From Candidatus Latescibacterota bacterium (GTDB taxonomy: Bacteria > JAAXHH01 > JACQVL01), in assembly GCA_016209865.1 (NCBI GenBank), contig JACQVL010000094.1:1-19719 (forward strand): a stretch of 19,719 bases of DNA. The letters run 5' to 3'. The position numbers and the translations under genes were made by a program. This document shows, one piece after another, positions 445-18,893 of the stretch. The notes beneath the pieces were generated by a model. The model was not told the origin of the DNA, ran no database searches, and saw only the letters and a program-made list of their open reading frames with translations. Every line of letters begins with the position of its first letter. Positions within the stretch are counted from its first letter, which is position 1.

Positions 445-2553
445 ATGAACCAGGTCGGCGTCGACATCGGCGGGACGTTCACGGATGTCCTCCTCTACGA
501 CCCTGCTCAGCACCAGTTCCGCATCGGAAAAGTCCTGACGACGCCGGAGGACCCGGCCCTGGGGGTACTCGATGGACTGCGCCAGGTCATGCCCGGCCCG
601 GAGTCTGCAGCCTCCCTCTCCCGCATCGTCCACGGCACGACGCTCGTCACCAACGCCCTGATCGAACGCAAAGGGGCGCTGACCGCGTTGCTCACGACAC
701 AGGGGTTCCGGGATGCGGTCGAGATCGGCCGCGAGCACCGGTACGACCTGTATGATATCTTTATCGAACGGCCCACATCCCTCGCCCCACGCTGGCTGAG
801 ACGCGAGGTCCCGGAACGCCTCAGGGCCGATGGGACGATCCTCATCCCGTTAGACGTATCGGAGACCCGTCGCATCGTCCGCGACTTGAGAGGCCTGGGG
901 GTCGAAGCGATCGCGGTGTCCTTCCTCCATGCGTACCGGAACGATCGCCATGAACGACGAGCCGCGGCGATCATCGCGGACGAAGCCCCTGAGATTATCG
1001 TCTCTCTCTCCTCGGACATCCACCCGCACCTCGGCGAGTACGAGCGGACCTCCACCACGCTGGCCAATGTCTACGTCCGCCGTCTCGTCCAGGCTTACCT
1101 GGAGCAACTCGAGGCGCAGTTGGCCGCGTTGGGGTTCACTGGCTCGCTGTTCGCCATGCTGTCCAGCGGGGGAATCTGCTCCGTCGAAACGGCTCAACGG
1201 TACCCCATCCGGCTGGTCGAGAGCGGGCCGGCGGCGGGCGCGCTGGCGGCGGCCGAGTTTGGCCGGCATCTCGGAGAGTCCCATCTCCTGGCCTTCGACA
1301 TGGGCGGGACGACCGCCAAAGCCGCGCTCATCAAAGACGGCCGGCCGCTTCGCAGCCAGCAGTTCGAGGTGTGCCGCGTCTACCGTTTCAAACGCGGGAG
1401 CGGCCTCCCGATTTCCGTGCCAGCCATCGAGCTGATCGAGATCGGGGCGGGCGGCGGGTCGATCGCGCGGGTCGATGCGATGGGGTTGTTGAAGGTTGGG
1501 CCGGACAGCGCCGGGGCGGCGCCGGGGCCGGCCTGTTACGGACGCGGCGGGACGCTGCCGACCGTGACGGACGCGGACCTGGTGTTAGGGTATCTCGATG
1601 CCGACTTCTTCTTAGGTGGAGCGATGCCTCTCGACCGGAGCGCGGCGGAACGGGCGCTCCAGGCTCATCTCGCCCGCCCGCTCGGCCTCGACCTCCAGCG
1701 CGCCGCGTGGGGAGTGCATCAAGTGGTCAACGAGAACATGGCAGGGGCGGCGCGGATGCACGCGATCGAGCACGGGGAAGACCCGCGCGCGTACACCCTG
1801 TTCGCGTTCGGTGGGGCCGGACCGGGCCACGCGTACCGGGTCGCGGACATCCTCGGCATCTCGCGGATCATCGTTCCGTTCGGCGCGGGCGTGGCGTCCA
1901 CGATCGGCTTCTTAGCCGCTCCCTTAGCGTTCGACTTCGTCCGCAGCGATTACGCCCCGCTCGATGAGGTCGACTGGTCGCGCGTCCGCTGTCACCTGAC
2001 GGAGATGGAGGCGGAAGGCCGGGCGCTGGTCACGCGCGCCGGGGTGGACGCGGAGCAGGTCGCGGTGCGCCGCACGGTAGAGATGCGCTACACAGGACAG
2101 GGCCACGAGGTGACCGTCGACGTGCCTCCGGGCGAGCCATCCTCCGCGATGTGCGACGCGCTCGTCCAGAATTTTGAGGCGGCATACCGGACGCTGTACG
2201 GACGGACTGCGCCCGGCGTTCCCATCGAAATCCTGACCTGGCGTCTCGACGTGTCCGGCCCGCGTCCCGGCCTGCCGCTCGCCGCCTTCTCCGCGCAGCC
2301 TCCCTCACCCCCGGCCTCTCAGAGAGGGGAGGGGAAAAGCGAGCAAGCCATCAAAGGGGAGCGCCCGATGTACCTCCCCGAGTATCAGGCGTACCGGTCC
2401 GTTCCGGTGTACGACCGCTACGCGCTGAGGCCAGGACACATCTTTGCCGGGCCGGCGATCATCGAGGAACGCGAATCGACGGTGATCGTCGGGCCGCGAG
2501 GAAATGTTGAGGTGGATCAGTACCGGAACCTGATGATCACGCTTACTTCATGA
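445..2553 (+). CDS. hyuA: Hydantoinase A / 5-oxoprolinase-type ATP-dependent subunit (HyuA family)
   Basis: This 702-residue protein has the full-length architecture of the HyuA/OplaH-A family, whose members use ATP to open or activate cyclic amides (5-oxoproline, hydantoins, N-methylhydantoin) or, in acetone carboxylases, ketones. The actin/hexokinase-like fold shows a phosphate-1 loop near residues 6-14 (VDIGGTFTD), HGTTLVTNALIER near 68-80, a second phosphate motif FDMGGTTAK near 283-291, the family signature VGPDSAGAAPGPACYGRGG near 351-369, and FAFGGAGPGHAYRVADILG past 450. The ATG at 445 puts the first phosphate loop at the very N terminus, as usual; no good Shine-Dalgarno precedes it. 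A Pro/Gly-rich stretch near residues 617-637 looks like a repeat-derived insert. HyuB, its normal partner, lies more than 10 kb downstream beyond an inverted operon. The 3' end overlaps the convergent decahaem gene by 11 bp. The cytoplasmic substrate cannot be told from sequence. Confidence 0.9.
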   Translation: MNQVGVDIGGTFTDVLLYDPAQHQFRIGKVLTTPEDPALGVLDGLRQVMPGPESAASLSRIVHGTTLVTNALIERKGALTALLTTQGFRDAVEIGREHRYDLYDIFIERPTSLAPRWLRREVPERLRADGTILIPLDVSETRRIVRDLRGLGVEAIAVSFLHAYRNDRHERRAAAIIADEAPEIIVSLSSDIHPHLGEYERTSTTLANVYVRRLVQAYLEQLEAQLAALGFTGSLFAMLSSGGICSVETAQRYPIRLVESGPAAGALAAAEFGRHLGESHLLAFDMGGTTAKAALIKDGRPLRSQQFEVCRVYRFKRGSGLPISVPAIELIEIGAGGGSIARVDAMGLLKVGPDSAGAAPGPACYGRGGTLPTVTDADLVLGYLDADFFLGGAMPLDRSAAERALQAHLARPLGLDLQRAAWGVHQVVNENMAGAARMHAIEHGEDPRAYTLFAFGGAGPGHAYRVADILGISRIIVPFGAGVASTIGFLAAPLAFDFVRSDYAPLDEVDWSRVRCHLTEMEAEGRALVTRAGVDAEQVAVRRTVEMRYTGQGHEVTVDVPPGEPSSAMCDALVQNFEAAYRTLYGRTAPGVPIEILTWRLDVSGPRPGLPLAAFSAQPPSPPASQRGEGKSEQAIKGERPMYLPEYQAYRSVPVYDRYALRPGHIFAGPAIIEERESTVIVGPRGNVEVDQYRNLMITLTS
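2301..2336. repeat. Palindromic GC-rich element inside hyuA
   Basis: A CCCTCACCCC run leads into CCTCTC-A-GAGAGG (2315-2327) and GGGGAGGGG. This mirror-like layout is typical of short dispersed palindromes in GC-rich genomes. It is read in frame as a Pro/Ser/Gly/Arg-rich loop (PPSPPASQRGEG) between two conserved HyuA segments, so it seems to be tolerated as a linker. Other copies outside this window are needed to prove it is a repeat family. Confidence 0.4.
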
Positions 2554-4588
2554 CCAAGGCTGTCGTCATCGTCCCGACGTGGTACGTGTGACAGGTCAGG
2601 CAGTTGTCGTTCATTTTCTGTCCGGTGTGGCAGGTGGTGCAGGTCGCTTTGACGATCGGTTTGAAGTCGCGCGCTGCATGGAGGGCATGGCAGGCGCGGC
2701 ACGCTTGTCTGATGAGGTGCGGCGCATGGGAGAACTTGACGGCGCGTCGCTCGGCCGGAAGCGAGCGCTCCTCAGTCCACTCGACCAGACGGCCCTGTTG
2801 ACTCTGGGCATCGGGTCGGGCATGGCATCTCATGCACTGGCCGGGGGTATCCGGGGCGGAGGCTGTGAGGATCTCGAAAATCTCAGCGGCACGACCCGCT
2901 GTCCCATACCGTTTTCCGGTGACATCGACCCAGGCGCGGACGAAGTGATCCGCGTGCCCGGCCGGCCGGTAGAACAGGGTCAACGCTCGATCCACGCGAG
3001 ACCAGCCGCCGACCGGATTCTCCCGCTCGGCGTCCCCTGTTGCGATGAATTTCATGGCGAGTTCCTTCAATGTGACCGTTTTTCCAGCCCGGTAGAGCGG
3101 CACTTCCGCCATCACATCGGGCAACCACCGTCGTTGGGCCGCCTGCAGTCTGTTTAACCAGTCCGGCTGGATCACAGGAAACAGCCATCCGGGGGCCTCT
3201 GAACTCTGGCCGGTCAGGGCGGGAACATCACGGGGACTCAGCGGGACGCCGAACGCCTTCGTGAGCCGTGCGACAAGCTCCGCCCGGCCGTTGGTGAGCA
3301 GGTCGTAGTAGAGTCCCTTCACCGCCCACACCACCCGTCCCGCCGCCGCAACCTGCCGCTCACTCGCCTTCTCCAGGTCATACAGATGCACGCCTGCCCT
3401 CGCCAGTTCGTCGAGGTCTCGCGCGACCTTCGGGTCTGCGGAGAGCAGGAGCGCCATGAACGGGGTAAGGTCTTCTTCTAAGTCGAGGTTGGCCTCGTCC
3501 GGCCATTCTCCGATCTCGATCCCGTGGTCGAGCAGGGTCTCGAAGTCGACCCCCGGGAGGTTGAAGACGGCAATGCCGCTCCCTCGTTGGATATGTTCAA
3601 GGTGACAACCGGTACACGTCCGCTCAAAGGGGTCTGTCAGGATCGTCCGCCTGTTCAGGGCAGGCCGGTGGCAATGCTGGCAGCCAAACGCGATGCCCTT
3701 CGTCGGAAAGTGTTCTTTCTCGTGAGACACATGATTAAACTGCCATCGACTGCGTGACTGGGACGGATAGCCGGTGAATTCTGGATGGCCGTTCATCAAG
3801 CTGGGGAAGCGGACGAGATGACAGGGCTGACAGTATTGGTTGTCTATTCGGGTGAGACGGACGGTTCGACCCAGATGTTCCCCGTGGCATGGGACGCACG
3901 CCAGTTCTCCGTGTTCATCGGGTCGGACATCGGCCGCTGCCGGGGCAAGGGACAGAGAGGATGAGGGAGAGAGGGGTGATGGCGCACGTTTCATCCGTTC
4001 GGTGATCTGAGACAGGTTTTGGGGAGGGAGTCCGTGTGGCTTGAGTCCCTGATCGGATCGATGACAGGTGATACACTGCTGGCTGTCCGCAACCCTGATG
4101 CCCGACGCCAGCACGGCCAGCAATTCTCCTACGGGGTGCTCCTGAGCGGCGACGTGACAGGCCGCGCAGTCCCGGATGACCTCATGCGACTTGACGAGCG
4201 GTCCGGGGGACACGAACAGATGGGGCGAGACGACCAGCCGTGGCCCGGCAAGGAACAGCAGGAGCAGGCTGAACGTGAAGGCCGAGACCAGGAGCGTGAC
4301 CATCCCCCGCCGGGTGCGGAGACTCCGGACCGGCTGGCATGTCGGGATGGGATGGCAGCACGTCCCATCCGGCAAGGGGCCTTCCTCGCACGGCCCGCCC
4401 CCGCCCGGCGGGCGCGCACACGACCAGCGATCCCCCTTGCGGACGGGGAAACACTCGTACGTGGCCTGGCAACGGCCTTTCTGATCGGGCCCGACCCGGC
4501 AGGCCCGCCCCTCAGCCGCCCATCCACACACCCACTTCTGAGTCGGCCGCTCGTAGTCGCCCTGATCGAACCGGGACGGCCTGTTCAT
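2543..4588 (-). CDS. Membrane-anchored decahaem c-type cytochrome with N-terminal cysteine-rich domain
   Basis: The 681-residue protein has three parts. Residues 1-94 form a cysteine-rich domain with nine Cys (21, 30, 40, 46, 57, 67, 77, 78, 84) and no haem motif. An Arg-rich stretch (RSLRTRRG) precedes one membrane helix at about 96-116, which by the positive-inside rule leaves the Cys-rich domain in the cytoplasm and the rest in the periplasm. Ten CXXCH motifs follow: 141, 172, 231, 253, 303 and 325 in a first group, then 585, 630, 650 and 663 in a second, separated by about 255 residues without haem sites. The Cys-rich region resembles one I associate with some uncharacterised cytochrome c3-type proteins, but its cofactor is unknown. 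It is last in the operon and its ATG overlaps the preceding stop by 4 bp (ATGA). Inferred role: periplasmic electron relay receiving from the neighbouring b-type protein. A low-complexity Ser/Pro segment (about 202-220) separates haems 2 and 3. Confidence 0.88.
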   Translation of the reverse strand: MNRPSRFDQGDYERPTQKWVCGWAAEGRACRVGPDQKGRCQATYECFPVRKGDRWSCARPPGGGGPCEEGPLPDGTCCHPIPTCQPVRSLRTRRGMVTLLVSAFTFSLLLLFLAGPRLVVSPHLFVSPGPLVKSHEVIRDCAACHVAAQEHPVGELLAVLASGIRVADSQQCITCHRSDQGLKPHGLPPQNLSQITERMKRAPSPLSPSSSLSLAPAAADVRPDEHGELACVPCHGEHLGRTVRLTRIDNQYCQPCHLVRFPSLMNGHPEFTGYPSQSRSRWQFNHVSHEKEHFPTKGIAFGCQHCHRPALNRRTILTDPFERTCTGCHLEHIQRGSGIAVFNLPGVDFETLLDHGIEIGEWPDEANLDLEEDLTPFMALLLSADPKVARDLDELARAGVHLYDLEKASERQVAAAGRVVWAVKGLYYDLLTNGRAELVARLTKAFGVPLSPRDVPALTGQSSEAPGWLFPVIQPDWLNRLQAAQRRWLPDVMAEVPLYRAGKTVTLKELAMKFIATGDAERENPVGGWSRVDRALTLFYRPAGHADHFVRAWVDVTGKRYGTAGRAAEIFEILTASAPDTPGQCMRCHARPDAQSQQGRLVEWTEERSLPAERRAVKFSHAPHLIRQACRACHALHAARDFKPIVKATCTTCHTGQKMNDNCLTCHTYHVGTMTTALVMK

Positions 4589-5427
4589 CCGGTTCCTCCG
4601 CGGAACGCATAGTAGTAGACCATCATGACCAGACCGTGCACGAACCCGACCAGCAGCAGGCTCGACGTTACGGGGATATGGACGAACAACCAGTACTTGA
4701 GGACGGCTTGATGAGCATACTGGTAATCCAGGTCATCCTTCGCCCGGATGAGGTCTGCGATCTCATCCATCAGTTTTCGCTCTTCGGTGTTCGCGTAACG
4801 GTCTAAGACGACCAGCTCGTTCAGCAGCCGATACCGGGGCCGGTTCGATTCCACCAGATGCCGCCAGAAGTGGCGCGGGTCCGCGAAGAACACGACGAGC
4901 CGCCTCGCGTAGAAGTCAGCGATGGTCACAGAATTCGCCTCAGTCATCGCGCGCCGCACCACCCCTTCAACCGCGTCGCGGAGCTGTCTTCTGAGGGCGG
5001 GGATGCGCTCGAACAGCACCTGTTCGCCGCGGGTGGTCAGGCGTCCCGGGATCGTGCGCGACAGCCCCAGCCCGACGAGACCGCTCCCGACCACGATCAG
5101 ATAGAGGACGGTGAGGGCGATCTCCAGTCCGCCGCTCGGTACCCGGACATCGATGTGGAGGCAGAAGAGGACGACGCTCAGCAGACCGGCATAGACATGA
5201 AACTGCAACCACTGTGACGAGGAAAACAGGGGAAGAAACGGCAATTTCTTGCGAACGGTATACAAGGCCAGGACGATCAGGAGGCCGAAGAGGACCCAGC
5301 CGGAGACGATGAAGAAGGAGGAGTGGCGTAACGCAGGGGAAGAGAGGGTGTAGAGGAGAATGCCCAAACCGGACAGGATGGTGCAGACGGCGAGGTTCGT
5401 CCACCGTCGGACGGCGAATGAGATCAT
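4585..5427 (-). CDS. Putative di-haem b-type membrane cytochrome
   Basis: This 280-residue protein has five predicted membrane helices: about 8-29, 38-58, 75-93, 101-123 and 245-273, with a ~120-residue hydrophilic, charged segment (124-240) between helices 4 and 5. Helix 3 carries His77 and His91, and helix 5 carries His250 and His264. Each pair is 14 residues apart, the spacing used by transmembrane di-haem b cytochromes to hold one haem near each membrane face. If helices 3 and 5 run parallel, as the count suggests, the natural pairs are His77-His250 and His91-His264. I do not recognise a named family. The gene overlaps both neighbours by 4 bp, so it is probably translationally coupled to the iron-sulphur protein upstream and the decahaem cytochrome downstream, fitting a membrane link between the two. 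A non-haem structural subunit of NrfD type is the main alternative, but it would not need the histidine pattern. Confidence 0.7.
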   Translation of the reverse strand: MISFAVRRWTNLAVCTILSGLGILLYTLSSPALRHSSFFIVSGWVLFGLLIVLALYTVRKKLPFLPLFSSSQWLQFHVYAGLLSVVLFCLHIDVRVPSGGLEIALTVLYLIVVGSGLVGLGLSRTIPGRLTTRGEQVLFERIPALRRQLRDAVEGVVRRAMTEANSVTIADFYARRLVVFFADPRHFWRHLVESNRPRYRLLNELVVLDRYANTEERKLMDEIADLIRAKDDLDYQYAHQAVLKYWLFVHIPVTSSLLLVGFVHGLVMMVYYYAFRGGTG

Positions 5428-7154
5428 CGACTGATCCAGGTGATGAGCGATTCCGGGTCATTGTGCAGGTCGACTCGTCGCAAGGCGTCGTGGGGGCAGG
5501 CGCGCTGGCAGGCCGGCCCGCCCATCTGATCGATGCAGAGGTCACATTTCGTGGCCTTCACGATGGGGAGGTTGGTGGTGCGATCCAGGATGAACGCGCC
5601 GTGGTCATTCCGGACCTCGACCATGCGGATGTTCTGATACGGGCAGCTATTCGCACAGGTCGCGCAGCCGATGCAGGTCGCGTCGTTGATGACGACCTGC
5701 CCTTGAAACGCGTCCCGATGGATGGCGCCGGTCGGACAGCCGATCATGCAGACCGGGTCGGCACAGTGCATGCAGGCGTGGGCCACCAGGTAGGGACCGA
5801 ATTGCGGGCCATGCCGGAGGAAGCGAGGGTTATTGTCATGTGTCGCGGCACACGCGCGGACACAGTCGTCGCACCGGGTGCAGCGGTCGAGGTTGATGAC
5901 CATCGTGGCCGTGCCGTTGATGAACCGGTTCTCGACGAGGAATTCGAGGAAATCATCGTCGATCCTTCGCCGCCTCTCCTGTTCCGGGTGGCTCGTCGTG
6001 GCGGCTTCAGGCACGGTGATCGGGGGTGGAAGTAGAGAGCGCGGAATGAGCGGAGCGTCCCGGTCCGGGCCGAGCACATACCGTTCGATGACGGGGGTGG
6101 GGACGAGCAACACATCGACATAGCCGAGCGCGCGAAGGGTGTACTGCAAGGGCACCTGGTTGACCTGGCGCCAGTTCTGCACGATCTCGTCGAACCCGTA
6201 CGCGTGGCCGCGGCCCAGGTAACTGAGCGTCCGGTGGCCGTGTCCGAACCGCTGGCTGACTCGCGCGAACCCGGATCGGATAAGGATCAGCCCGTTCGGG
6301 TAATGTCCTTCTTCAGCGATGATCGGCTCGTCGTCCAGACGACCGGCGGCGCGTCCCTCCACTATGGTTTTGTACGAGGCATGCCAGTCGAAGTGACCAT
6401 ACGTCTCGAACACGGTCTGATTCACCACTTCCGTGAGGTCTTCTTCGCTGAGATGGCGGAAGATCGGGGTTTCTTGCAGGTGGACTTTCAGACTCCGCTC
6501 ACGGTAGAGTTGATCGATATACAGTTTCAACTCCTCCACGCGGGATCGCAGGTCCCGGAGTCCCTGCCACCGAATCTCGAGCAGCTCAGCCTCGCCGTCC
6601 GCGAAGACCGTCGCCGTGCGTGGCGTCCGGCCAAGCGCGGCAATCTCGCCGAAAAACTCCCCCGCTTCGAGTCGCACCGTCTTGTGCTCGCTGAGCACCG
6701 CTGGCACGTCCTGCAAGAAGATGCGCGTCCGCGCGCCGTCCCCCCGGCTCCCTCCGGCCGGAGAAGGGGTCGTATAGGCGGCCAGGTCGCGGACCTCGAT
6801 CCCCTTTCGGGTATTCCACACCTGGGCCAGGACCTCGACAAAGCTCTTGTGCCGGGGTTCGCGCCGGCCGAGCACCGAGGCGGGCAGGTCGTCGATGACA
6901 ACCCGAACCGCCCCGGAGATGATGAAGAACGCCGAGTTTCCGTAGTCTCCCTCACGAACAATGATATCCCCGTGTTGATACTGCCCAATCCGGGTGTCGT
7001 TGTGGATGATGCTGCGCAACGGCGCGGCGGGGGAAAACTTCGCTGGATCCATCCGGCTGAACGGGGGAATCGCCAGGAGACGATCGACCGCCGCATTCGT
7101 CATGTCGGGATCGAACGGGTTATCCCACCTCTGAGGACGGGTGATGACTTCCAT
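5424..7154 (-). CDS. Cyclic-nucleotide-binding-domain protein fused to a four-[4Fe-4S] ferredoxin
   Basis: The 576-residue protein has no signal peptide or membrane helix and should be cytoplasmic. Domain order: a cyclic-nucleotide-binding (CNB) beta-roll at about 25-205, a second at about 225-365, and a ferredoxin domain at about 415-560. The first CNB contains the phosphate-binding cassette FGEIAALGRTPRTATV (about 168-183) with the Glu (170) and Arg (179) that contact the cyclic phosphate in CRP and PKA-R; it is interrupted at about 98-150 by a loop rich in Gly, Pro and Arg. The second roll keeps the fold pattern but not the cassette. The ferredoxin part has 16 cysteines in the HybA/DmsB/NrfC arrangement: 425/428/431/435, 461/464/469/473, 494/497/500/504 and 537/540/549/553. 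A Shine-Dalgarno (GGAGG) lies in the 16-bp gap after the c554-like gene. Inferred role: cytoplasmic electron-transfer subunit of the membrane complex, controlled by a cyclic nucleotide. Confidence 0.9.
   Translation of the reverse strand: MEVITRPQRWDNPFDPDMTNAAVDRLLAIPPFSRMDPAKFSPAAPLRSIIHNDTRIGQYQHGDIIVREGDYGNSAFFIISGAVRVVIDDLPASVLGRREPRHKSFVEVLAQVWNTRKGIEVRDLAAYTTPSPAGGSRGDGARTRIFLQDVPAVLSEHKTVRLEAGEFFGEIAALGRTPRTATVFADGEAELLEIRWQGLRDLRSRVEELKLYIDQLYRERSLKVHLQETPIFRHLSEEDLTEVVNQTVFETYGHFDWHASYKTIVEGRAAGRLDDEPIIAEEGHYPNGLILIRSGFARVSQRFGHGHRTLSYLGRGHAYGFDEIVQNWRQVNQVPLQYTLRALGYVDVLLVPTPVIERYVLGPDRDAPLIPRSLLPPPITVPEAATTSHPEQERRRRIDDDFLEFLVENRFINGTATMVINLDRCTRCDDCVRACAATHDNNPRFLRHGPQFGPYLVAHACMHCADPVCMIGCPTGAIHRDAFQGQVVINDATCIGCATCANSCPYQNIRMVEVRNDHGAFILDRTTNLPIVKATKCDLCIDQMGGPACQRACPHDALRRVDLHNDPESLITWISR
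6740..6772. repeat. Palindromic GC-rich element inside the CNB-ferredoxin gene
   Basis: A perfect 12-bp palindrome, CTCCGGCCGGAG, lies at 6752-6763 flanked by a C-run on one side and AAGGGG on the other. It encodes part of the Pro/Gly/Ser/Arg loop that breaks the first CNB domain. Such sites often mark small dispersed palindromes, but a second copy is not present here. Confidence 0.3.
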
Positions 7155-7170
7155 GAGCGGAGCCTCCGCG

Positions 7171-8247
7171 TCACTTGCCGTCGGAAACTTTCCCCTTGTA
7201 TTGCTTCGCGTCAGGGATCAGGGCGTCGAGGGCGGCGAACTGGCTGCCGTCGTAGTTGGCCGCGACAAACTTCTTCGCCGCGGTTTTGACTCTGTCGACG
7301 GCTGCGATCAGCTCGGCCTGGTTGTTCGACTGCAGCCTGGCGGTCGCCGCCGCGTTCACTATCTCCCCGATGATCGGAGCGAGGATGGGAGCGTGAGCCT
7401 GGATCTCCTTTAGCCTGTCCACGACCGCGACGGTCCGTTGTTTCATGGCATCGATGTAGGGCCCGTCTTGCGTCGCCCTGGCCGCGGCGCGCAGGCTGTA
7501 TTCCAGGTCGAGCATCCGTCCGATGATGTACAGCACGCGTGTATGGTGCGCCGGATTGAGGGCTTTAGGGGCTTCCCGGTTCTCCGTCCCGTTGGAGAGG
7601 AGGAAATTGTGGCGTACTTCCCCCTGTGCCCATGAGACCAGTTCAAAGGCGCTGCCGGCGGTATGTCCTCCCTTGTTGACCAACTCCTCGTTCGGCACCG
7701 TATGGCATTGGAAGCAATTCTCGGCCACGAAATACGGCTGATTCGGGCGGATCATACCGAGTTTCTCGCTCTGTTCCAGACGCATCGTGCGGTGGTCGGG
7801 GAGCTCGGTCTCCCTCGTCGCCTTCTCCCTTTTCGCGTCCGTGCCGTAGTCGTTGTGCACTCCGCGCCACTCTTTCGCCGCGCCGTGACAGGATTCGCAA
7901 GACACCCCGGCGATCGCTTTCGGCCGCGCTCCCTCCGCTTGCATCGTGAAATGGCACGTCGTGCACGGTTCACGCTTGACGCTCCGCAAGCCTAACTTAT
8001 CCAGGATGGCCTGAGCGGCAGGTTGGCGCTGTAAGGGTTCAAAATCGGGCGCTCCATCGAACGCTTTCTGGTGTTTCATGCTCATCAACGTCTGGTATTC
8101 CGCTTTATGGCAATCTATGCAGGCCGCGGGGCCGAGAATTTTCTCCGGGTCGGTGGCCGCCCCTGCCGTCCTTGCCCCGATGCTGAGCAAGAAGACGAAC
8201 ACCCCACACCAAATAGATACAGTCTTTATCCGCTTCTCCAACACCAT
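7171..8247 (-). CDS. Periplasmic tetrahaem cytochrome c, c554-like
   Basis: The 358-residue protein begins with a Sec signal peptide (hydrophobic core about 10-24, likely cut after AGA near residue 30). Four CXXCH motifs stand at 43, 95, 117 and 178. The order CIDCH...MKHQKAF, CTTCH, GVSCESCHG and CFQCHTVPNEELV is that of the cytochrome c554 / 'multihaem c-type' family known from hydroxylamine oxidation in Nitrosomonas and from many other electron chains. The C-terminal ~150 residues have no haem and look helical (many Ala, Lys, Gln), perhaps a docking or four-helix domain. A good Shine-Dalgarno (AAGGAG, with AGGAGG further upstream) precedes the ATG. It sits between the flavin reductase and the CNB-ferredoxin genes. 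Likely role: soluble periplasmic carrier between the decahaem cytochrome and the outer-membrane components. A catalytic role on a nitrogen compound cannot be excluded. Confidence 0.85.
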   Translation of the reverse strand: MVLEKRIKTVSIWCGVFVFLLSIGARTAGAATDPEKILGPAACIDCHKAEYQTLMSMKHQKAFDGAPDFEPLQRQPAAQAILDKLGLRSVKREPCTTCHFTMQAEGARPKAIAGVSCESCHGAAKEWRGVHNDYGTDAKREKATRETELPDHRTMRLEQSEKLGMIRPNQPYFVAENCFQCHTVPNEELVNKGGHTAGSAFELVSWAQGEVRHNFLLSNGTENREAPKALNPAHHTRVLYIIGRMLDLEYSLRAAARATQDGPYIDAMKQRTVAVVDRLKEIQAHAPILAPIIGEIVNAAATARLQSNNQAELIAAVDRVKTAAKKFVAANYDGSQFAALDALIPDAKQYKGKVSDGK

Positions 8248-8270
8248 CTATCGTGCTCCTTTCCTCCTTC

Positions 8271-9575
8271 TTACGCATCCAGCACCACGTGCCCCTTCGG
8301 GACTGCGATGCACGTCAGGCACGTCCCCGCTTCCGGGATCGGGTTTGGAGCATGGATGTACCGCACCTCTCCCTCTTTAATGGCGGTCAGGCACGTCTGA
8401 CAGTTGCCGACCCGACAGCCTGAGTCGATCGTGACGCCGTTCGCTTCAGCGAATTCCAGGAGCGACCCCACGCTGGGGTCCCACACCACCCGCTTCCCGG
8501 ATTGACTGAACGTCACCGTCATCCCCGGGCCGGGCACAGCCCCGGTCTCCGCGACGGACCGTGCAATCTGTTTGACGCTGGCCGGACTGAACGCCTCGAA
8601 TTTGATGTCGTCGTCGGGGACGCCCCAGTCCCGGAGTCCGTCGATCAGGGCCGTCATCATGGACGCCGGCCCGCAGAGGTAGAACTGGTAGTTATTCGAC
8701 GGCAACAGGCGTTTCAAGAGGCCGATGCTGATCCGTTCGCCATGATGATAGTCTTTCCCCTGCACATCGTCCTCACCGGGCGCACTGTAGCAGAGGTGGA
8801 GACGGATATTCTCATGTTCCCGAGCGATGCGGTCGAGGGACGCGCGCATGATCTGTTCACGGCTGTTGCGGGCCCCATAGAAGAACCACGTCTCACGCCG
8901 GGACCCGCTGTCGATGAGCGTATTGAGCATACTGAGCATCGGCGTCACCCCGACCCCACCGCCGATCAAGACGACCGGGGTCTGCTTCGTCATATCGAGG
9001 AAGAAATCCCCGCTGGGCGCTTTGATATCGAGGATATCTCCCTCCTGCACCCGGTCGTGAAAAAAATTCGACACCAACCCCGGCGCGAGGTCGGACCGAT
9101 CGGGCGTGGGGGCTAATCGTTTGATCGACACCCGGTAATAGTCCGGCCTGGGGGAGTCGGACAGGGAATAGCAGCGGACGGCCGGCCGGTTCCGGCGGTG
9201 TCCGGCGCGCGGGTCGTTGAGATGGAGCTGAAAGGTCAAGAACTGGCCGGGCTTGAACGGCGGCAACGGCCGGCCGTCATGAGGGGCGAAATAGAATGAG
9301 CAGACACGCGCGAGGGCATCTTCGTAGACTTTGCGCTCGACCTTGAACTTCCGGTATCCGTTCCACGAGAGATCGGTCAGGGCCTGAGCGCGTTCCCATT
9401 CCACGCGAAGCCGTCCCGCCGCCGCCTTCGCGTCTTCCACCCGCTGCTGCAGGAGTCGGAGGGCCGTCCGGTGTCGCCGGAAGGACGAGTACAGCACCAA
9501 GACAACCTGAATGAAGACCGCGCTGGCGATGAGGAAACCGAGAATGGGTATGGAATCGAGAATCCGAACGAGCAT
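8271..9575 (-). CDS. Membrane-anchored FAD/NAD(P)H reductase with C-terminal [2Fe-2S] ferredoxin domain
   Basis: This 434-residue protein has an N-terminal membrane helix (about 8-30) followed by Arg/His (SFRRHR), which places the rest in the cytoplasm, and a short helical linker (about 37-66). The reductase core closely follows the flavohaemoglobin/ferredoxin-NADP reductase pattern: FAD motif RCYSLSDSP at 134-142, YRVSIKR at 147-153, NAD(P)-binding GGGVGVTPMLSML at 205-217 and CGPASMM at 301-307. The C terminus is a plant-type [2Fe-2S] domain with Cys387, Cys392, Cys395 and Cys422. It therefore resembles the reductase half of Hmp, or Hcr/BenC-type reductases, with a membrane anchor where Hmp has its globin. 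Its ATG directly abuts the TAG of the preceding porin gene, so translational coupling is likely. Inferred role: moves electrons between NAD(P)H and the iron-sulphur module of this operon. Confidence 0.9.
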   Translation of the reverse strand: MLVRILDSIPILGFLIASAVFIQVVLVLYSSFRRHRTALRLLQQRVEDAKAAAGRLRVEWERAQALTDLSWNGYRKFKVERKVYEDALARVCSFYFAPHDGRPLPPFKPGQFLTFQLHLNDPRAGHRRNRPAVRCYSLSDSPRPDYYRVSIKRLAPTPDRSDLAPGLVSNFFHDRVQEGDILDIKAPSGDFFLDMTKQTPVVLIGGGVGVTPMLSMLNTLIDSGSRRETWFFYGARNSREQIMRASLDRIAREHENIRLHLCYSAPGEDDVQGKDYHHGERISIGLLKRLLPSNNYQFYLCGPASMMTALIDGLRDWGVPDDDIKFEAFSPASVKQIARSVAETGAVPGPGMTVTFSQSGKRVVWDPSVGSLLEFAEANGVTIDSGCRVGNCQTCLTAIKEGEVRYIHAPNPIPEAGTCLTCIAVPKGHVVLDA

Positions 9576-10991
9576 CTAAAACTTCACCTGCGTCTCGAAC
9601 CGTCCACCATAAGCTGTATCGCGTCGTTGCTGGGTGGCCGCAAACCCATCGAGTTGCAGGAGCATCCGCCGGCCGACCGCGTGCTGATACCGCATCCCGA
9701 TCGCGGCCGCGCCCGCATCGATACGGTTCGTATCTTTCCGCCCGCTCACTTCCAGGATGAGCTGCCGGCGGCGGGTCTTGGTGAACAGCATCTGATACCC
9801 CAGGCTCCCGCCGACCGCGTCCTGCGCCTGACTGCTGAGCGCTGCCCCATACTGGCCCATCCCCGCGGCCGCAAACAGGATGCCGATGCGCCCCAACGGA
9901 CCGTCAACTCCTGGGTCTCGGGCGACCAGGGAGTAGCTCTGGATCGCCCAGAAGGTATTGAAATAGAGCAAATTCCTCGTGCGTGGCGGAGTCCAGGAGA
10001 ATTCGCTGGACAACAGCGTTCCCCGGCTGGCCACCACGGTCTGGCGGTCGATCGGGATGGACGCGTTGACCCGGAACGTCGTGTTGATCTCCCCGAGGCG
10101 CTGGGTCCCGCTCACCCCTGCGTAGAAGGCGTCTCCGGTCGTTGCTTTGGCGAGGACGTAGGCGAGGTCGACGTTGATCGTGCTGGCCCGCGTGTCCGTC
10201 TCGGTGAACAGGCCGATGAGCTGGGCGGATCGATCCTCGATGGTGTCGGTACGGTTGATCTGATTCCACCCGTACAGTCCGGTGATCCTGATATTGGTCA
10301 CGCCCCACGGCCGAAGAGAGTTCCGGGTGAGCCCCACCGCGTCCATGTTGTCGTTCATCAGCATCCCATCCTGGAACACCAGGGCCTGCCGCCCGACCGC
10401 GAACCCGATGTCGAAGGGACGGCGGTCGTAGCTGTCCAGCTTCGGGAAGAGCTCGCCGATATCCCCCTCGAAGAAGAGGGTCTGGATCTGGCTCGTAAAG
10501 TTATGCTGCCAGCCGTCGTTGCGGGTGGGTCGGAAAATGTACCCCACGTCGCCCCGATCATTGAACGGGCGGAGGCCGAGCAGGATGCGCTCCGTCCCGG
10601 ATAGTCGCAGGTTGACGAAGACGTCCATCCGGTTCGTCCATTCAGCCAACGTCGGCCCGTTGTCGAACGACTGCACCCCCGTCCGGTAGGTGCCAAACAC
10701 CCACAGGGCCGGCTGCCAGGTGGCCCCCGTCGGAATCGTGACGCCCCGTCCCAGGGGACCGGTGCTGAGAAACCGTTCGCCCAACTCCAGCAACAGACGG
10801 GGCCGCTTCGGGAAGTTTTTCGTCTGAAGCGGGATGGGTCGATCAGACAGCCGGCTGTTGTCCGGCTTCTCGTCCGATGCGGCCCAGCCCGGCGAGAGGC
10901 ATCCGATCAGCACCAGGGCAACGACCATCCCGACCGGCCAGCTCCGCAAAATGGCTGATATTCCTTTTTGTATTGCGTGTCCCTGTCTCAT
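9576..10991 (-). CDS. Outer-membrane beta-barrel protein (porin-like)
   Basis: The 471-residue protein starts with an export signal (Arg/Lys-containing head, hydrophobic core about 20-34). Cleavage is probably after GWA near residue 37; the sequence LIGC at 28-31 also fits a lipobox, so a lipoprotein is possible. The mature protein shows alternating hydrophobic/aromatic strands with short turns throughout and ends in FETQVKF, the terminal Phe typical of proteins inserted by the BAM complex. The length suits a 16- to 22-strand barrel. I cannot assign a named porin family. It lies 12 bp after the pentahaem cytochrome gene (with GGGGGTGA as ribosome site) and 0 bp before the reductase gene. Position between cytochrome genes suggests a porin-cytochrome arrangement in which the barrel lets a haem protein reach the outside; a simple diffusion channel for a substrate is the alternative. 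Confidence 0.8.
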   Translation of the reverse strand: MRQGHAIQKGISAILRSWPVGMVVALVLIGCLSPGWAASDEKPDNSRLSDRPIPLQTKNFPKRPRLLLELGERFLSTGPLGRGVTIPTGATWQPALWVFGTYRTGVQSFDNGPTLAEWTNRMDVFVNLRLSGTERILLGLRPFNDRGDVGYIFRPTRNDGWQHNFTSQIQTLFFEGDIGELFPKLDSYDRRPFDIGFAVGRQALVFQDGMLMNDNMDAVGLTRNSLRPWGVTNIRITGLYGWNQINRTDTIEDRSAQLIGLFTETDTRASTINVDLAYVLAKATTGDAFYAGVSGTQRLGEINTTFRVNASIPIDRQTVVASRGTLLSSEFSWTPPRTRNLLYFNTFWAIQSYSLVARDPGVDGPLGRIGILFAAAGMGQYGAALSSQAQDAVGGSLGYQMLFTKTRRRQLILEVSGRKDTNRIDAGAAAIGMRYQHAVGRRMLLQLDGFAATQQRRDTAYGGRFETQVKF

Positions 10992-11003
10992 GTGCTCACC
11001 CCC

Positions 11004-12860
11004 TCAATCCCCCTTTTTCATCGCTTTCTCAGTCGAATCCTGGGGTTTATCCGTGGCCATCGAACGATCCCAGAGCGCTGGAGTCACCGCCTTCTGCTGC
11101 CACACGATCGACCTGGCGTCTTTGTGGGTATCGATGATCGCCTCATACTCCCCCAACAGGGCGTGCCGTTCGACGATCGCATCCGCGACCTGGCGCGTGC
11201 TCATCCCATAATCAAACCCGACGCCCTCGACCTCATGGACGAGGTTCACCGGAACCATGCCCGCTAACAACTTGACCGTCGCTCTATACGGACCTTTCCC
11301 GGTCAGGGCGGATTTCTTCACTTCGTACTCCGGCCAGTAGCTGCCGAGCGGAGGAATCGTCATCCTGTGGGTCCGCGCTCCGGCCGGGCGTCCGGTCAGG
11401 ATAGCTGAGAACGTCGACGGCCGGATGAAGGGGAGGGCGTCGATCGAGAGGTTGGTGGGGATGACGGGATGGCGGTCGCTCCCCCGGACGTTCTGGATGA
11501 TGAACTCGGATTGCAGGTTGAACAGGTACTTATCCTTCGGGACGATCCCATTCTGGACGTAGACAGAATGGGTTTCCCGGAGGTCGCCGTTGGGGTCAAG
11601 GTCGCCCGACTGGAAGATGATTTTTCCGTCGCTGTCCGTGACGGTGACCTGCAGGTAGACGGGCCGCTCCGCCGCGAACCCGGTCGGCACGTTATGCCCA
11701 TCGGAGGGGTTCTTGACCTGCACCTTGAACCGGATGCCGCGCTCGTCCGCCTGCTCGGTGACGATCTGGCCGATCTGGTACCCGTTGCTCAACACCTCGA
11801 TCCGCTTGGCCATGTATTCGTTGAGCAGCTTGATCTGGTCGTCGATGATCTCACGCGCCTCGATGCGGTCGTCGTACGACGTCCACCGTTTCGGGAAGGT
11901 GTAGCCTTTCGGCAGCCGGTCTTCAAATTCCTCCGTTCCCCACCCGGCTTTATAATCGAACGTCAGCCATTCACTGATCGTCGCCATCTTGGCGGCACGG
12001 ACGTTATGCGGATAGATGCCGGGATGGATGATCGAATGATCTGGACCAGCTATCATGTGGTCGGTCAGCTTGCGCGGCCTGGTGGGTTTGCCGTTGACGA
12101 TCGCGGCTGGACCGACGTTGTAGTTCGTCTCCGGGCTGCCGGTAAACAGGCCTAAGGTTTTCCCCATGTGGCAATCCTGGCAGGTCACTCCGTTCTTGGC
12201 CGCCGGAGAATTTTTATACTCACTGAACGCCTCCTCCAGCCGGAACCCGTTCATCAGCGTGACGTCATGGCACGCCCCGCAGAAGCCGGGCTTGGTGATG
12301 GCGAAGAACCGCTGGGCTTCGAGATGGACGGGAAACCGGCGGGCTTTGTCGTTGGCGGTCGCCACGTTGAACGTATTGTCCGACTGAACCCGTTTCAGTT
12401 CCTCTCCCCCGCGCGGTCCGTAGATCGTGCCGTAGATGTCCTCCTCCTGGACGGTCAGCCGGGCGCTGATCTTTCCGTGGGCCTGGTTGATGCGATGGCA
12501 CGTCACGCAGTTGACCCCCTCACGGGCGATCTGAGACCGCTCTTCGTTAGCCGTGAAGACGGATTCCTTTAACGCCATCCCCTCCGTCGTATGGCACCGG
12601 ATGCAGAAGTCGCCGTTCGTCCCGTTCGTCCGCTTCGTCGTCGTCGCCTGCATCGCGTTGAACACGGGACTGAGCTGACCATAGGCATGGGGAGAGACCG
12701 CCCACTGCCGGAAATGGTTGGGATGGCACGTCCCGCATGCCGCGGCAGACGGGAACTTGATCGCCTCTTCGTGCATCTGCACGGAGTCAAGCTTGTACTC
12801 TTGAGCCCAGACAGGGGTGATGATGAGACAGAGCAGAGACAGGAGGATGACAGACCTCAT
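11004..12860 (-). CDS. Exported pentahaem c-type cytochrome
   Basis: The 618-residue protein opens with a short Sec signal peptide (cleavage likely after VWA, residue 19). Five CXXCH motifs lie at 42, 86, 118, 194 and 227, in the c554-type spacing, so all haems sit in the first 40% of the protein. The remaining ~380 residues include a beta-rich region (about 375-510) with HNVPTGFAAERPVYLQVTV, a segment seen in other multihaem cytochromes in which the His may serve as a distal haem ligand. It is the first gene of the seven-gene operon and has a strong ribosome site, GGAGGGAGG, 5-6 nt upstream of its ATG. Pairing with the outer-membrane barrel directly downstream suggests it works at or through the outer membrane. 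Whether it is a conduit, a surface reductase or a periplasmic enzyme cannot be told from sequence. Confidence 0.87.
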   Translation of the reverse strand: MRSVILLSLLCLIITPVWAQEYKLDSVQMHEEAIKFPSAAACGTCHPNHFRQWAVSPHAYGQLSPVFNAMQATTTKRTNGTNGDFCIRCHTTEGMALKESVFTANEERSQIAREGVNCVTCHRINQAHGKISARLTVQEEDIYGTIYGPRGGEELKRVQSDNTFNVATANDKARRFPVHLEAQRFFAITKPGFCGACHDVTLMNGFRLEEAFSEYKNSPAAKNGVTCQDCHMGKTLGLFTGSPETNYNVGPAAIVNGKPTRPRKLTDHMIAGPDHSIIHPGIYPHNVRAAKMATISEWLTFDYKAGWGTEEFEDRLPKGYTFPKRWTSYDDRIEAREIIDDQIKLLNEYMAKRIEVLSNGYQIGQIVTEQADERGIRFKVQVKNPSDGHNVPTGFAAERPVYLQVTVTDSDGKIIFQSGDLDPNGDLRETHSVYVQNGIVPKDKYLFNLQSEFIIQNVRGSDRHPVIPTNLSIDALPFIRPSTFSAILTGRPAGARTHRMTIPPLGSYWPEYEVKKSALTGKGPYRATVKLLAGMVPVNLVHEVEGVGFDYGMSTRQVADAIVERHALLGEYEAIIDTHKDARSIVWQQKAVTPALWDRSMATDKPQDSTEKAMKKGD

Positions 12861-13033: not shown

Positions 13034-13062
13034 AATATGGTGAGATTCTGCTGTTCTGTCAA
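13034..13062 (-). promoter_or_regulatory. Candidate sigma-70-type promoter of the cytochrome operon
   Basis: On the minus strand a perfect -35 box TTGACA (13062-13057) is followed by a 17-bp spacer and CATATT (13039-13034), four of six matches to the -10 consensus. Transcription would start near 13027 and give a leader of about 165 nt before the pentahaem cytochrome. No other pair in the region is as good for this strand. Confidence 0.45.
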
Positions 13063-13194
13063 CATATTTTCAACCCCTGGGTCACAGAATACCTCATGAG
13101 TGTGATAGGATTATACCACAGACGACATCGGATACCGTGATCCAGAGCACGTTTGCGTGACGAGGGTGAAAATTTCTGTCCAGGGTGTCCATCC

Positions 13195-14850
13195 ATGCCA
13201 TGTGTTCCCGTCTTCGACCCGATCACCCTTGAAGTCCTGTGGAACCGTCTGATCGCCGTCGTCAACGAGCAGGCGACCGCGCTGATGAGGACCTCGTTTA
13301 CGTCGATCGTCCGCGACGCCGGGGACCTGTCGGCGGGCGTCTTCGACCCGCACGGCAACATGGTCGCTCAGGCGGTCACCGGCACGCCCGGCCATATCAA
13401 CGCCATGGCGACGTGCATCCATCACTTTTTAGCCGTGTACCCGGCGGAGCGCCTGCGTCCTGGCGATGTCCTGATCACGAACAACCCGCAGCAGACGTCC
13501 GGCCACCTGCACGACCTGACCGTCGTCACCCCGATCTTCCGGGGAACGGAGCTCGTCGCTTTCTTCGGGAATACCTGCCATGCGATCGACATCGGTGGGA
13601 TCGGGCTGGGGACGGATGCCCGGTCGGTCTACGAAGAGGGTCTGTGTATCCCCATCACGAAGCTGTACGCGGCCGGGGCGCCGAACGAGGACCTGTTCAA
13701 CATCATCCGGGCGAACGTCCGCGCCCCGGCGATGGTCATCGGCGACCTGCACGCTCAGGTGGCCGGAAACGACGTGGGCGGGCGGCGTCTGCTGGCGTTT
13801 ATGGACGAGTTCGGCTTAGCGTCGATTCAGCCGCTCGCGGACGCCATCATCGACCGCTCCGAGCGGGCGATGCGCCGGGCGATCGCTGCTCTCCCGGACG
13901 GGACGTACGCCAACACGGTGTACAGTGACGGCTACGATGAGCCGGTGCGTCTGAGCGTGCAGATCATGAAACGCGGGTCTGAGCTGTGGGTCGATTTCGC
14001 GGGGAGTAGTCCGGTCAGCCCGCGGGGGATCAACGTCGTGCTCAACTACACCCATGCCTACGCCACCTACGCCCTCAAGTGCGCGCTGGCGCCGGAGGTG
14101 CCCAACAACGAGGGGAGTTTCCGGCCGGTGCACGTGACCGCCCCCGACGGGTGCATCCTCAACGCCCAGCCGCCGGCGCCCGTCGCCGCCCGGCACATCA
14201 TCGGGCACTTCCTCCCCGGCCTGATCTTCGGTGCGCTCGCCCCGGCCATCCCGGATCGCGTCTTAGCGGAAGGGGCGGCCAACATCTGGGCGACTCAGTT
14301 TACCGGATACGACCGGGCCGGCCAGCCGTTCACGTACGTCTGGTTCTCCTCCGGCGGGATGGGCGCGCGGCCGACGAGCGACGGGCTGCACGCCACCGCC
14401 TTCCCGAGCGGGGTAGCGGGCGTCCTGACCGAAGTCATCGAAACCCTCGCTCCCCTGCTCCTGCGCCGCCGCGAACTGCGTCCCGACAGCGGCGGGCCGG
14501 GCCGGTTCCGGGGCGGATGCGGCCAGACGATGGAGGTGGAAGTCCTGACCGACCAGGAGTACCGATTCTCGCCGCTGTTCGACCGGAGCCGATTCCCCGC
14601 CGCCGGGTCTGCGGGCGGACAGCCCGGCGCACTGGGCGTGATCGTCCTCAGTGACGGGACGCGTCTGACCCAGAAAGGGGCTCGTGTCCTGGCGCCCGAC
14701 GTGCGCGTGACCCTCGACCTGCCCGGCGGCGGCGGGTACGGCGATCCTCGGACGCGCAACCCGGCTCTCGTCCTGGAGGACGTTCGCAACGGGCTGGTGA
14801 CCCAGCAGGCTGCCCGTGACGCGTACGGCGTCGTGATCGCCGGAGAGTAG
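13195..14850 (+). CDS. hyuB: Hydantoinase B / 5-oxoprolinase-type subunit (HyuB family)
   Basis: With the ATG at 13195 the protein has 551 residues, the normal size for HyuB. An in-frame TTG at 13153 would add 14 residues, but the family normally begins a few residues before DPITLEVLWNRL, which favours the ATG; neither has a clear ribosome site. Family hallmarks include TSFTSIVRDAGDLSAGVFD and NMVAQAVTGTPGHINAM in the first 70 residues, GDVLITNNPQQTSGHLHDLT near 92-111, HAIDIGGIG near 132-140, and the C-terminal GGGGYGDPRTR typical of 5-oxoprolinase B subunits. HyuB works with HyuA in ATP-dependent opening of cyclic amides or in related carboxylations. The matching hyuA is at 445-2553 beyond the inverted cytochrome operon. 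The TAG stop lies inside the left arm of an inverted repeat. It is followed by the NagB-type gene on the same strand. Confidence 0.9.
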   Translation: MPCVPVFDPITLEVLWNRLIAVVNEQATALMRTSFTSIVRDAGDLSAGVFDPHGNMVAQAVTGTPGHINAMATCIHHFLAVYPAERLRPGDVLITNNPQQTSGHLHDLTVVTPIFRGTELVAFFGNTCHAIDIGGIGLGTDARSVYEEGLCIPITKLYAAGAPNEDLFNIIRANVRAPAMVIGDLHAQVAGNDVGGRRLLAFMDEFGLASIQPLADAIIDRSERAMRRAIAALPDGTYANTVYSDGYDEPVRLSVQIMKRGSELWVDFAGSSPVSPRGINVVLNYTHAYATYALKCALAPEVPNNEGSFRPVHVTAPDGCILNAQPPAPVAARHIIGHFLPGLIFGALAPAIPDRVLAEGAANIWATQFTGYDRAGQPFTYVWFSSGGMGARPTSDGLHATAFPSGVAGVLTEVIETLAPLLLRRRELRPDSGGPGRFRGGCGQTMEVEVLTDQEYRFSPLFDRSRFPAAGSAGGQPGALGVIVLSDGTRLTQKGARVLAPDVRVTLDLPGGGGYGDPRTRNPALVLEDVRNGLVTQQAARDAYGVVIAGE

Positions 14851-14916
14851 GGGCAAAGCATTCGCAGGTCAGACGTAACAGGGCTCTACCTTGAGAGGCG
14901 AATGCTTTGCCCCTAC
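14847..14916. repeat. 19-bp perfect inverted repeat (short palindromic or MITE-like element)
   Basis: The arm GTAGGGGCAAAGCATTCGC at 14847-14865 is perfectly inverted at 14898-14916, with a 32-nt centre. The left arm contains the hyuB TAG stop and the right arm ends two bases before the ribosome site of the next gene. GTAGGGGC...GCCCCTAC ends are familiar from small non-coding palindromic elements dispersed in many GC-rich bacteria. A transcribed copy would form a strong hairpin, but there is no T-run, so I do not call it an intrinsic terminator. Confidence 0.75.
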
Positions 14917-14917
14917 A

Positions 14918-14935
14918 GGAGGGAGATACACCGTG
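14918..14935 (+). promoter_or_regulatory. Ribosome binding site that fixes a GTG start for the NagB-type gene
   Basis: AGGAGGGAG (14918-14926) stands 6 nt before GTG at 14933-14935. An in-frame TTG at 14891 has no ribosome site and would place the inverted-repeat sequence inside the protein, so the GTG is preferred. Confidence 0.8.
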
Positions 14936-18775: not shown

Positions 18776-18800
18776 CTCGTGTCCTCTATCGTTTCCAACT

Positions 18801-18875
18801 TGTCATTCCCGTGAAAACGGGAATCCATCCTCTGTTGGGATGCCGTCATGGATTCCCGCTTGCGCGGGAATGACA
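18801..18875. repeat. Double-hairpin palindromic repeat between glycoside hydrolase and sialidase genes
   Basis: The 28-bp arms at 18801-18828 and 18848-18875 are inverted copies with three differences. Each arm also contains its own perfect 8-bp hairpin: ATTCCCGT-GAAA-ACGGGAAT in the left and ATTCCCGC-TTGC-GCGGGAAT in the right. The CATTCCCG...CGGGAATCC core is familiar as a dispersed REP-like palindrome in many bacteria. It could limit read-through or stabilise the upstream mRNA; no T-run follows it. It accounts for most of the 118-bp gap. Confidence 0.8.
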
Positions 18876-18893
18876 CAAAGCGCTGAGGATATC

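Follow-up and report, generated by a model that had tools for sequence, protein, structure and literature searches.

A seven-gene operon from a Latescibacterota bacterium encoding a predicted trans-envelope redox system of the PCC4 subgroup II type

Genes at the locus

The window analysed here, a stretch of 19,719 nucleotides of contig JACQVL010000094.1 from a Candidatus Latescibacterota bacterium, holds seven open reading frames that run head to tail on the minus strand from 12860 to 2543, with gaps of 12, 0, 23, 16, −4 and −4 bp (Table 1). An initial sequence-only reading had described seven genes at these spacings, and all were found where it placed them. Counts of the haem-c motif CXXCH (5, 0, 0, 4, 0, 0 and 10 in g1 to g7) agree with its haem assignments, and its inventory of 19 c haems, two b haems, five Fe-S clusters and one flavin holds as a set of predictions. 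The sigma-70-like promoter candidate upstream of g1 is tentative, as the scan returned 4 sites where 2.3 were expected by chance.

Table 1. Features of the operon, with positions in the window
Feature	Position	Strand	Assignment
g1	11004..12860	-	exported pentahaem c-type cytochrome, signal peptide
g2	9576..10991	-	outer-membrane beta-barrel, OprD/Occ/AlgE-like fold, 18 strands predicted
g3	8271..9575	-	FAD/NAD(P)H reductase, membrane-anchored (TM 9-27), C-terminal [2Fe-2S] ferredoxin domain
g4	7171..8247	-	exported c554-like tetrahaem cytochrome
g5	5424..7154	-	cytoplasmic CNB-CNB-4x[4Fe-4S] protein, PF13247 present
g6	4585..5427	-	di-haem b protein, five TM (predicted)
g7	2543..4588	-	Cys-rich cytoplasmic N-terminus, TM about 96-118, then ten haem-c sites
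Candidate promoter TTGACA-17-CATATT	13034..13062	-	sigma-70-like, upstream of g1; tentative

Genes for hydantoinase A and hydantoinase B (445-2553 and 13153-14850, both on the plus strand, opposite to the operon) lie on either side of it. These two genes are usually neighbours, and the operon sits as though inserted between them; in relatives the operon does not have conserved hydantoinase flanks. Further along the plus strand lie a gene for a glucosamine-6-phosphate isomerase fused to a PIG-L deacetylase (14891-16771) and one for a protein with a GH42 trimerisation domain (16787-18775), followed by a repeat-like palindromic stretch at 18790-18885 (GTCATTCCCGTGAAAACGGGAATCC ... GGATTCCCGCTTGCGCGGGAATGAC).

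Cofactor ligands and predicted folds

Ligand conservation was judged over 35-50 homologues per protein. At the cytoplasmic end, g3 matches the Pfam families NAD_binding_1 and Fer2, has flavohaemoproteins and NqrF as its nearest solved relatives and keeps its [2Fe-2S] cysteines (387, 392, 395 and 422) in the alignment of homologues. g5 combines Pfam cNMP_binding and 4Fe-4S families, with PF13247 scoring 38.4 bits against a cut-off of 26.2, and its 16 cluster cysteines, present in at least 48 of 49 homologues, point to four [4Fe-4S] clusters. The phosphate-binding cassette of its first CNB domain, CNB1, retains Gly169-Glu170 and Arg179 (Glu170 in 48 and Arg179 in 46 of 49 homologues), while the corresponding Glu and Arg were not seen in CNB2, which is degenerate. 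Cyclic-nucleotide occupancy of CNB1 may regulate electron entry. Together g3 and g5 bear out the cytoplasmic redox entry first read from the sequence.

g6 has no Pfam or NCBIfam match above cut-off. Four histidines (77, 91, 250 and 264) are invariant in 49/49 homologues and form two H-x13-H pairs, each within a WX3HX13H motif: W73/H77/H91 in TM3 and W246/H250/H264 in TM5. An SGxxG motif lies in TM4 at residues 115-119 (S115-G116-G119). The model (pLDDT 93) shows five long membrane helices (4-29, 35-59, 70-91, 100-130 and 214-275) and finds no confident match in the PDB by Foldseek, NOX-like folds included; STEAP1 and cytochrome b561 appear as weak matches at VIA Z of about 7. Against PF01794 the protein scores 14.7 bits where the curated cut-off is 28, and matches of any kind occur in 4/51 homologues. 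The two invariant pairs support, as a prediction, the earlier assignment of g6 as a di-haem b protein.

Matches to multihaem families in Pfam, together with ten CXXCH motifs and ten candidate distal histidines conserved across homologues, likewise support g7 as an anchored decahaem cytochrome. Ahead of its membrane helix is a cysteine-rich stretch (C21, C30, C40, C57, C67, C77 and C84), a possible additional metal site that the earlier reading did not contain; the seven cysteines are present in at least 36 of 40 homologues, the stretch being shorter in some planctomycetes. g4 matches the Pfam family Cytochrome_C554 and has four CXXCH motifs with four conserved candidate distal histidines.

At the outer end, g1 also matches Cytochrome_C554, and its five CXXCH motifs are accompanied by several conserved histidines elsewhere in the protein, making bis-His ligation of all five haems likely. 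Its C-terminus forms a GHxxPTG beta domain, and cytochrome c552 of T. tepidum (5ze8) is a distant relative. In some planctomycetes the g1 gene is tandemly duplicated (L161:1465-5285). g2 matches no family in Pfam or NCBIfam; its model (pLDDT 85) is a beta-barrel of 18 strands, counted from DSSP elements, with OprD/Occ and AlgE channels as best matches (VIA Z 24-28 over about 320 residues). The barrel is narrower than those of the MtrB type and inside the range predicted for Geobacter-type Pcc barrels, which have 18-22 strands and periplasmic partners with 5-14 haems (PMC4245776).

A narrow barrel paired with five haems could equally serve a soluble substrate or an outer-membrane crossing. Since even six haems have been argued to be too few for spanning the outer membrane (PMC4245776), the five of g1 alone may not do so. 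The barrel might instead import a soluble oxidant that periplasmic g1 reduces, with no electrons crossing the outer membrane, a proposal that touches the outer end alone and leaves the inner chain described below intact. It is favoured by the OprD/Occ/AlgE-type model of g2, by the kinship of five-haem g1 to T. tepidum c552, by the lack of an extracellular cytochrome in the operon and by the tight co-evolution of g1 and g2. A fold match, however, shows no function, and the strand number and haem count also fall within the Geobacter-type ranges given above. Moreover, all five g1 haems have conserved candidate distal histidines, so that no open catalytic haem is evident. We regard oxidant import as quite possible, if short of probable. 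Of the complete conduit originally described, the passage of electrons toward the outer membrane is supported, whereas completeness is called into question by the 18-strand barrel, the pentahaem partner and the missing extracellular cytochrome.

Recurrence of the gene set and co-evolution of its parts

Scanning GTDB contigs and searching whole genomes turned up the set in Alphaproteobacteria, the isolate Thalassobaculum litoreum among them, as well as in Planctomycetes, Verrucomicrobia and the order to which the window belongs; Magnetococcales yielded part of it. The synteny search that the sequence-only reading had proposed was thereby run and gave a gene set shared by several phyla, which argues that the operon is not a chance assembly and upholds its description as a single functional unit. 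The closest named relative is a metagenome-assembled genome labelled Candidatus Poribacteria (67% for g5). Within the window's order the distribution is patchy, with orthologues in three genomes (G000, G001 and G014) and none in a genus of 12 genomes. In a comparison of 56 loci, no conserved neighbours recurred apart from the seven genes themselves; most of the other neighbour clusters are shadow ORFs on the opposite strand. The genes come in the order [g1-g3][g4-g7] or [g4-g7][g1-g3], and g1-g2 lie on a separate contig in some planctomycetes. Even when unlinked, g1 accompanies g5: both are present in 23 of 26 alphaproteobacterial carriers (2.0 expected; Fisher p 9e-28) and in 33 of 36 planctomycete carriers (4.6 expected; Fisher p 6e-32), in tests that count genomes and are uncorrected for relatedness. 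A search of viral contigs found no instance of the system; in a search of plasmids, the only matches were distant cousins carried by those of Sphingobium.

Pairwise distance matrices from 21 loci carrying all seven proteins give partial correlations of 0.68 for g3-g5, 0.54 for g5-g6, 0.39 for g6-g7, 0.51 for g7-g4, 0.29 for g4-g1 and 0.93 for g1-g2. The result is a linear chain from the reductase through the CNB-ferredoxin, the di-haem b protein, the decahaem and the tetrahaem to the pentahaem with its barrel. The distance correlation of g1 and g2 is 0.94, which suggests that the two pair with each other. Given that g3 adjoins g2 in the operon yet correlates with it at just 0.15, the chain tracks the route that electrons would be expected to take, not the adjacency of the genes. 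Read as wiring, this order is suggestive only, as related sequences are non-independent and shared inheritance of a module can mimic contact.

The distances of g1-g2 correlate weakly with those of the inner part, g3-g7 (0.15-0.54), and outer and inner parts therefore have partly separate histories. Such a weak correlation speaks for a reading in which unrelated complexes happen to lie side by side. This reading is rejected as highly improbable on the conserved gene set, the co-occurrence of unlinked genes and the chain-like co-evolution.

The cytoplasmic entry module seems exchangeable, because five loci (L180, L182, L183, L185 and L191) combine the b protein and/or the decahaem with the tetrahaem and g1-g2 and have no nearby CNB-ferredoxin. 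Some planctomycetes also have no nearby g3, and entry from NAD(P)H is accordingly not universal. More distant cousins carry other entry proteins. A Lysobacterales locus (L033, 3694-8935) encodes a Pyr_redox-CNB-CNB-4Fe-4S protein with a b protein and a multihaem cytochrome, and a Sphingobium plasmid (L174, 5684-10859) a Pyr_redox flavoprotein fused to the CNB-ferredoxin, again followed by a b protein and a multihaem cytochrome; downstream of the fused protein in such cousins come the b protein and then a decahaem. At L187:3190-5007 (minus strand) a g3-type reductase with an N-terminally fused FHA domain lies near a g5/g6 cousin. The Pyr_redox fusions and this FHA-fused reductase support pyridine-nucleotide entry. 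The FHA-type cousins (L033 and L174) and PCC3 share with the operon a paired H-x13-H b protein next to a large multihaem cytochrome, and in L033 and L174 the CNB-4Fe-4S protein is shared as well. They differ from the operon in their identity to it of about 25-30% and, in several cases, in an FHA or FHA-like (Yop-YscD) domain that replaces the Cys-rich N-terminus, detected by Pfam in L174, L175 and L189. One genome of the window's order also holds a second, distant (26%) pair of CNB-ferredoxin and b protein with no adjacent multihaem gene (L055:12578-14809).

Electron path, kinship to PCC4 and other redox systems

He et al. (2017; PMC5566968) describe PCC4 as a predicted porin-cytochrome system whose cytochromes have 4, 5 and 10 haems, with a five-TM protein carrying SGxxG in TM4 and WX3HX13H in TM3 and TM5. 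In its subgroup II, known from Planctomycetes and Proteobacteria, a pfam13247 Fe-S gene precedes the five-TM protein and a redox gene precedes the tetrahaem gene (PMC5566968). By CXXCH counts and the barrel model, the operon has a porin gene and cytochromes with 4, 5 and 10 haems. g6 carries SGxxG and both WX3HX13H motifs, the PF13247 protein g5 is encoded upstream of g6 with an overlap of 4 bp, and g3 lies 23 bp upstream of g4. As every listed testable feature is present, the operon is assigned by gene content and motifs to PCC4 subgroup II, here in a member from another, poorly known bacterial lineage. The sequence-only reading, which knew of no system joining these parts, is corrected by this match in gene content and motifs (PMC5566968). 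Our literature search found no experimental test of any PCC4 system; a 2026 cave metagenome paper mentions PCC4 in passing.

Our results provide a model in which the operon probably encodes a PCC4 subgroup II trans-envelope redox system running from NAD(P)H through g3, g5, g6, g7 and g4 to g1/g2. NAD(P)H would reduce the membrane-anchored FAD/[2Fe-2S] reductase g3, which would hand electrons to the cytoplasmic CNB-ferredoxin g5, and the two b haems of g6 would take them across the inner membrane to the anchored decahaem g7. The tetrahaem g4 would then ferry them over the periplasm to the pentahaem g1. Paired with the 18-strand barrel g2, g1 would work at the outer membrane, where an acceptor or, less likely, a donor would meet it through or at the barrel. 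The flavoprotein fusions of the cousins suggest a cytosolic NAD(P)H link, not the quinone link of He et al.

With regard to direction, He et al. propose that electrons flow inward, with the donor outside the cell and the quinone pool at the receiving end (PMC5566968). The conduit here could run the same way, starting at Fe(II), Mn(II) or some other external donor and ending at the quinone pool or NAD(P)+. PCC4 is reported from marine Zetaproteobacteria iron oxidisers and from drinking-water filter genomes (PMC5566968), carriers of this kind are reversible, and an extracellular cytochrome is lacking as in MtoAB and PioAB. However, RuBisCO is missing in 8 of the 9 carriers tested, the genome of the window giving one weak fragment match at a contig end, and haem-copper oxidases are present in 7 of the 9, with none found in the window's genome (83% complete). 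Calvin-cycle lithoautotrophy is hence not the general role of the carriers. Electron transfer from such donors to NAD(P)H would also have to overcome an unfavourable potential difference as well as the membrane voltage, and the flavoproteins at the cytosolic end are of the reductase type. We consider uptake unlikely. Export from NAD(P)H is favoured, given the cytosolic reductase-type flavoproteins, the NOX-like haem spacing, the rarity of RuBisCO and the haem-copper oxidases. In its strongest form, which is doubtful but not far-fetched, the export model would describe an exporter that draws on NAD(P)H without quinones, reaches across the entire Gram-negative envelope and is controlled by a cyclic-nucleotide switch, in effect a split NADPH oxidase with 19 c haems and an 18-strand pore.

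PCC4 has been a prediction on paper since 2017, linked to iron oxidation. Here it emerges as a machine whose parts are tightly conserved across several phyla, most of the genomes tested having no RuBisCO. New are a testable order of carriers and indications of cytosolic NAD(P)H, not quinones, at the inner end, together with the retained Glu and Arg of CNB1, the Cys-rich N-terminus of the decahaem and the prediction of an 18-strand OprD/AlgE-like barrel. The main text of He et al. makes no mention of CNB domains or cyclic nucleotides for PCC4, whereas g5 has CNB domains, and it describes the decahaem as periplasmic, whereas g7 has an N-terminal TM helix and a Cys-rich cytoplasmic part. The role and direction of PCC4, a long-standing question, can now be put to the test in cultivated carriers, among them Thalassobaculum litoreum.

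MtrCAB, MtoAB and PioAB resemble the operon in encoding a barrel with multihaem cytochromes. Their barrels have 28 predicted strands that sheathe a decahaem (PMC4245776), in contrast to 18 strands and a co-evolving pentahaem here, and electrons enter via quinol oxidases such as CymA; the operon is thus not of this type. The Hmc, Nrf and CbcL complexes similarly couple a ferredoxin-like subunit or b haem to multihaem c but, unlike the operon, lack outer-membrane components. The search of the operon revealed no NrfD-like subunit, and no sequence homology of g6 to these complexes was found; with partial matches only, such as HmcB at E 2e-8 over the ferredoxin part, Hmc/Nrf-type membership was rejected. 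In NADPH oxidases and ferric reductases, as in the operon, an FAD/NAD(P)H module feeds two b haems on H-x13-H pairs, and g6 has two such motifs as predicted haem ligands, although its PF01794 score lies below the curated cut-off. The operon departs from these enzymes in distributing the path over separate proteins with Fe-S relays and in delivering electrons, as predicted, to c haems.
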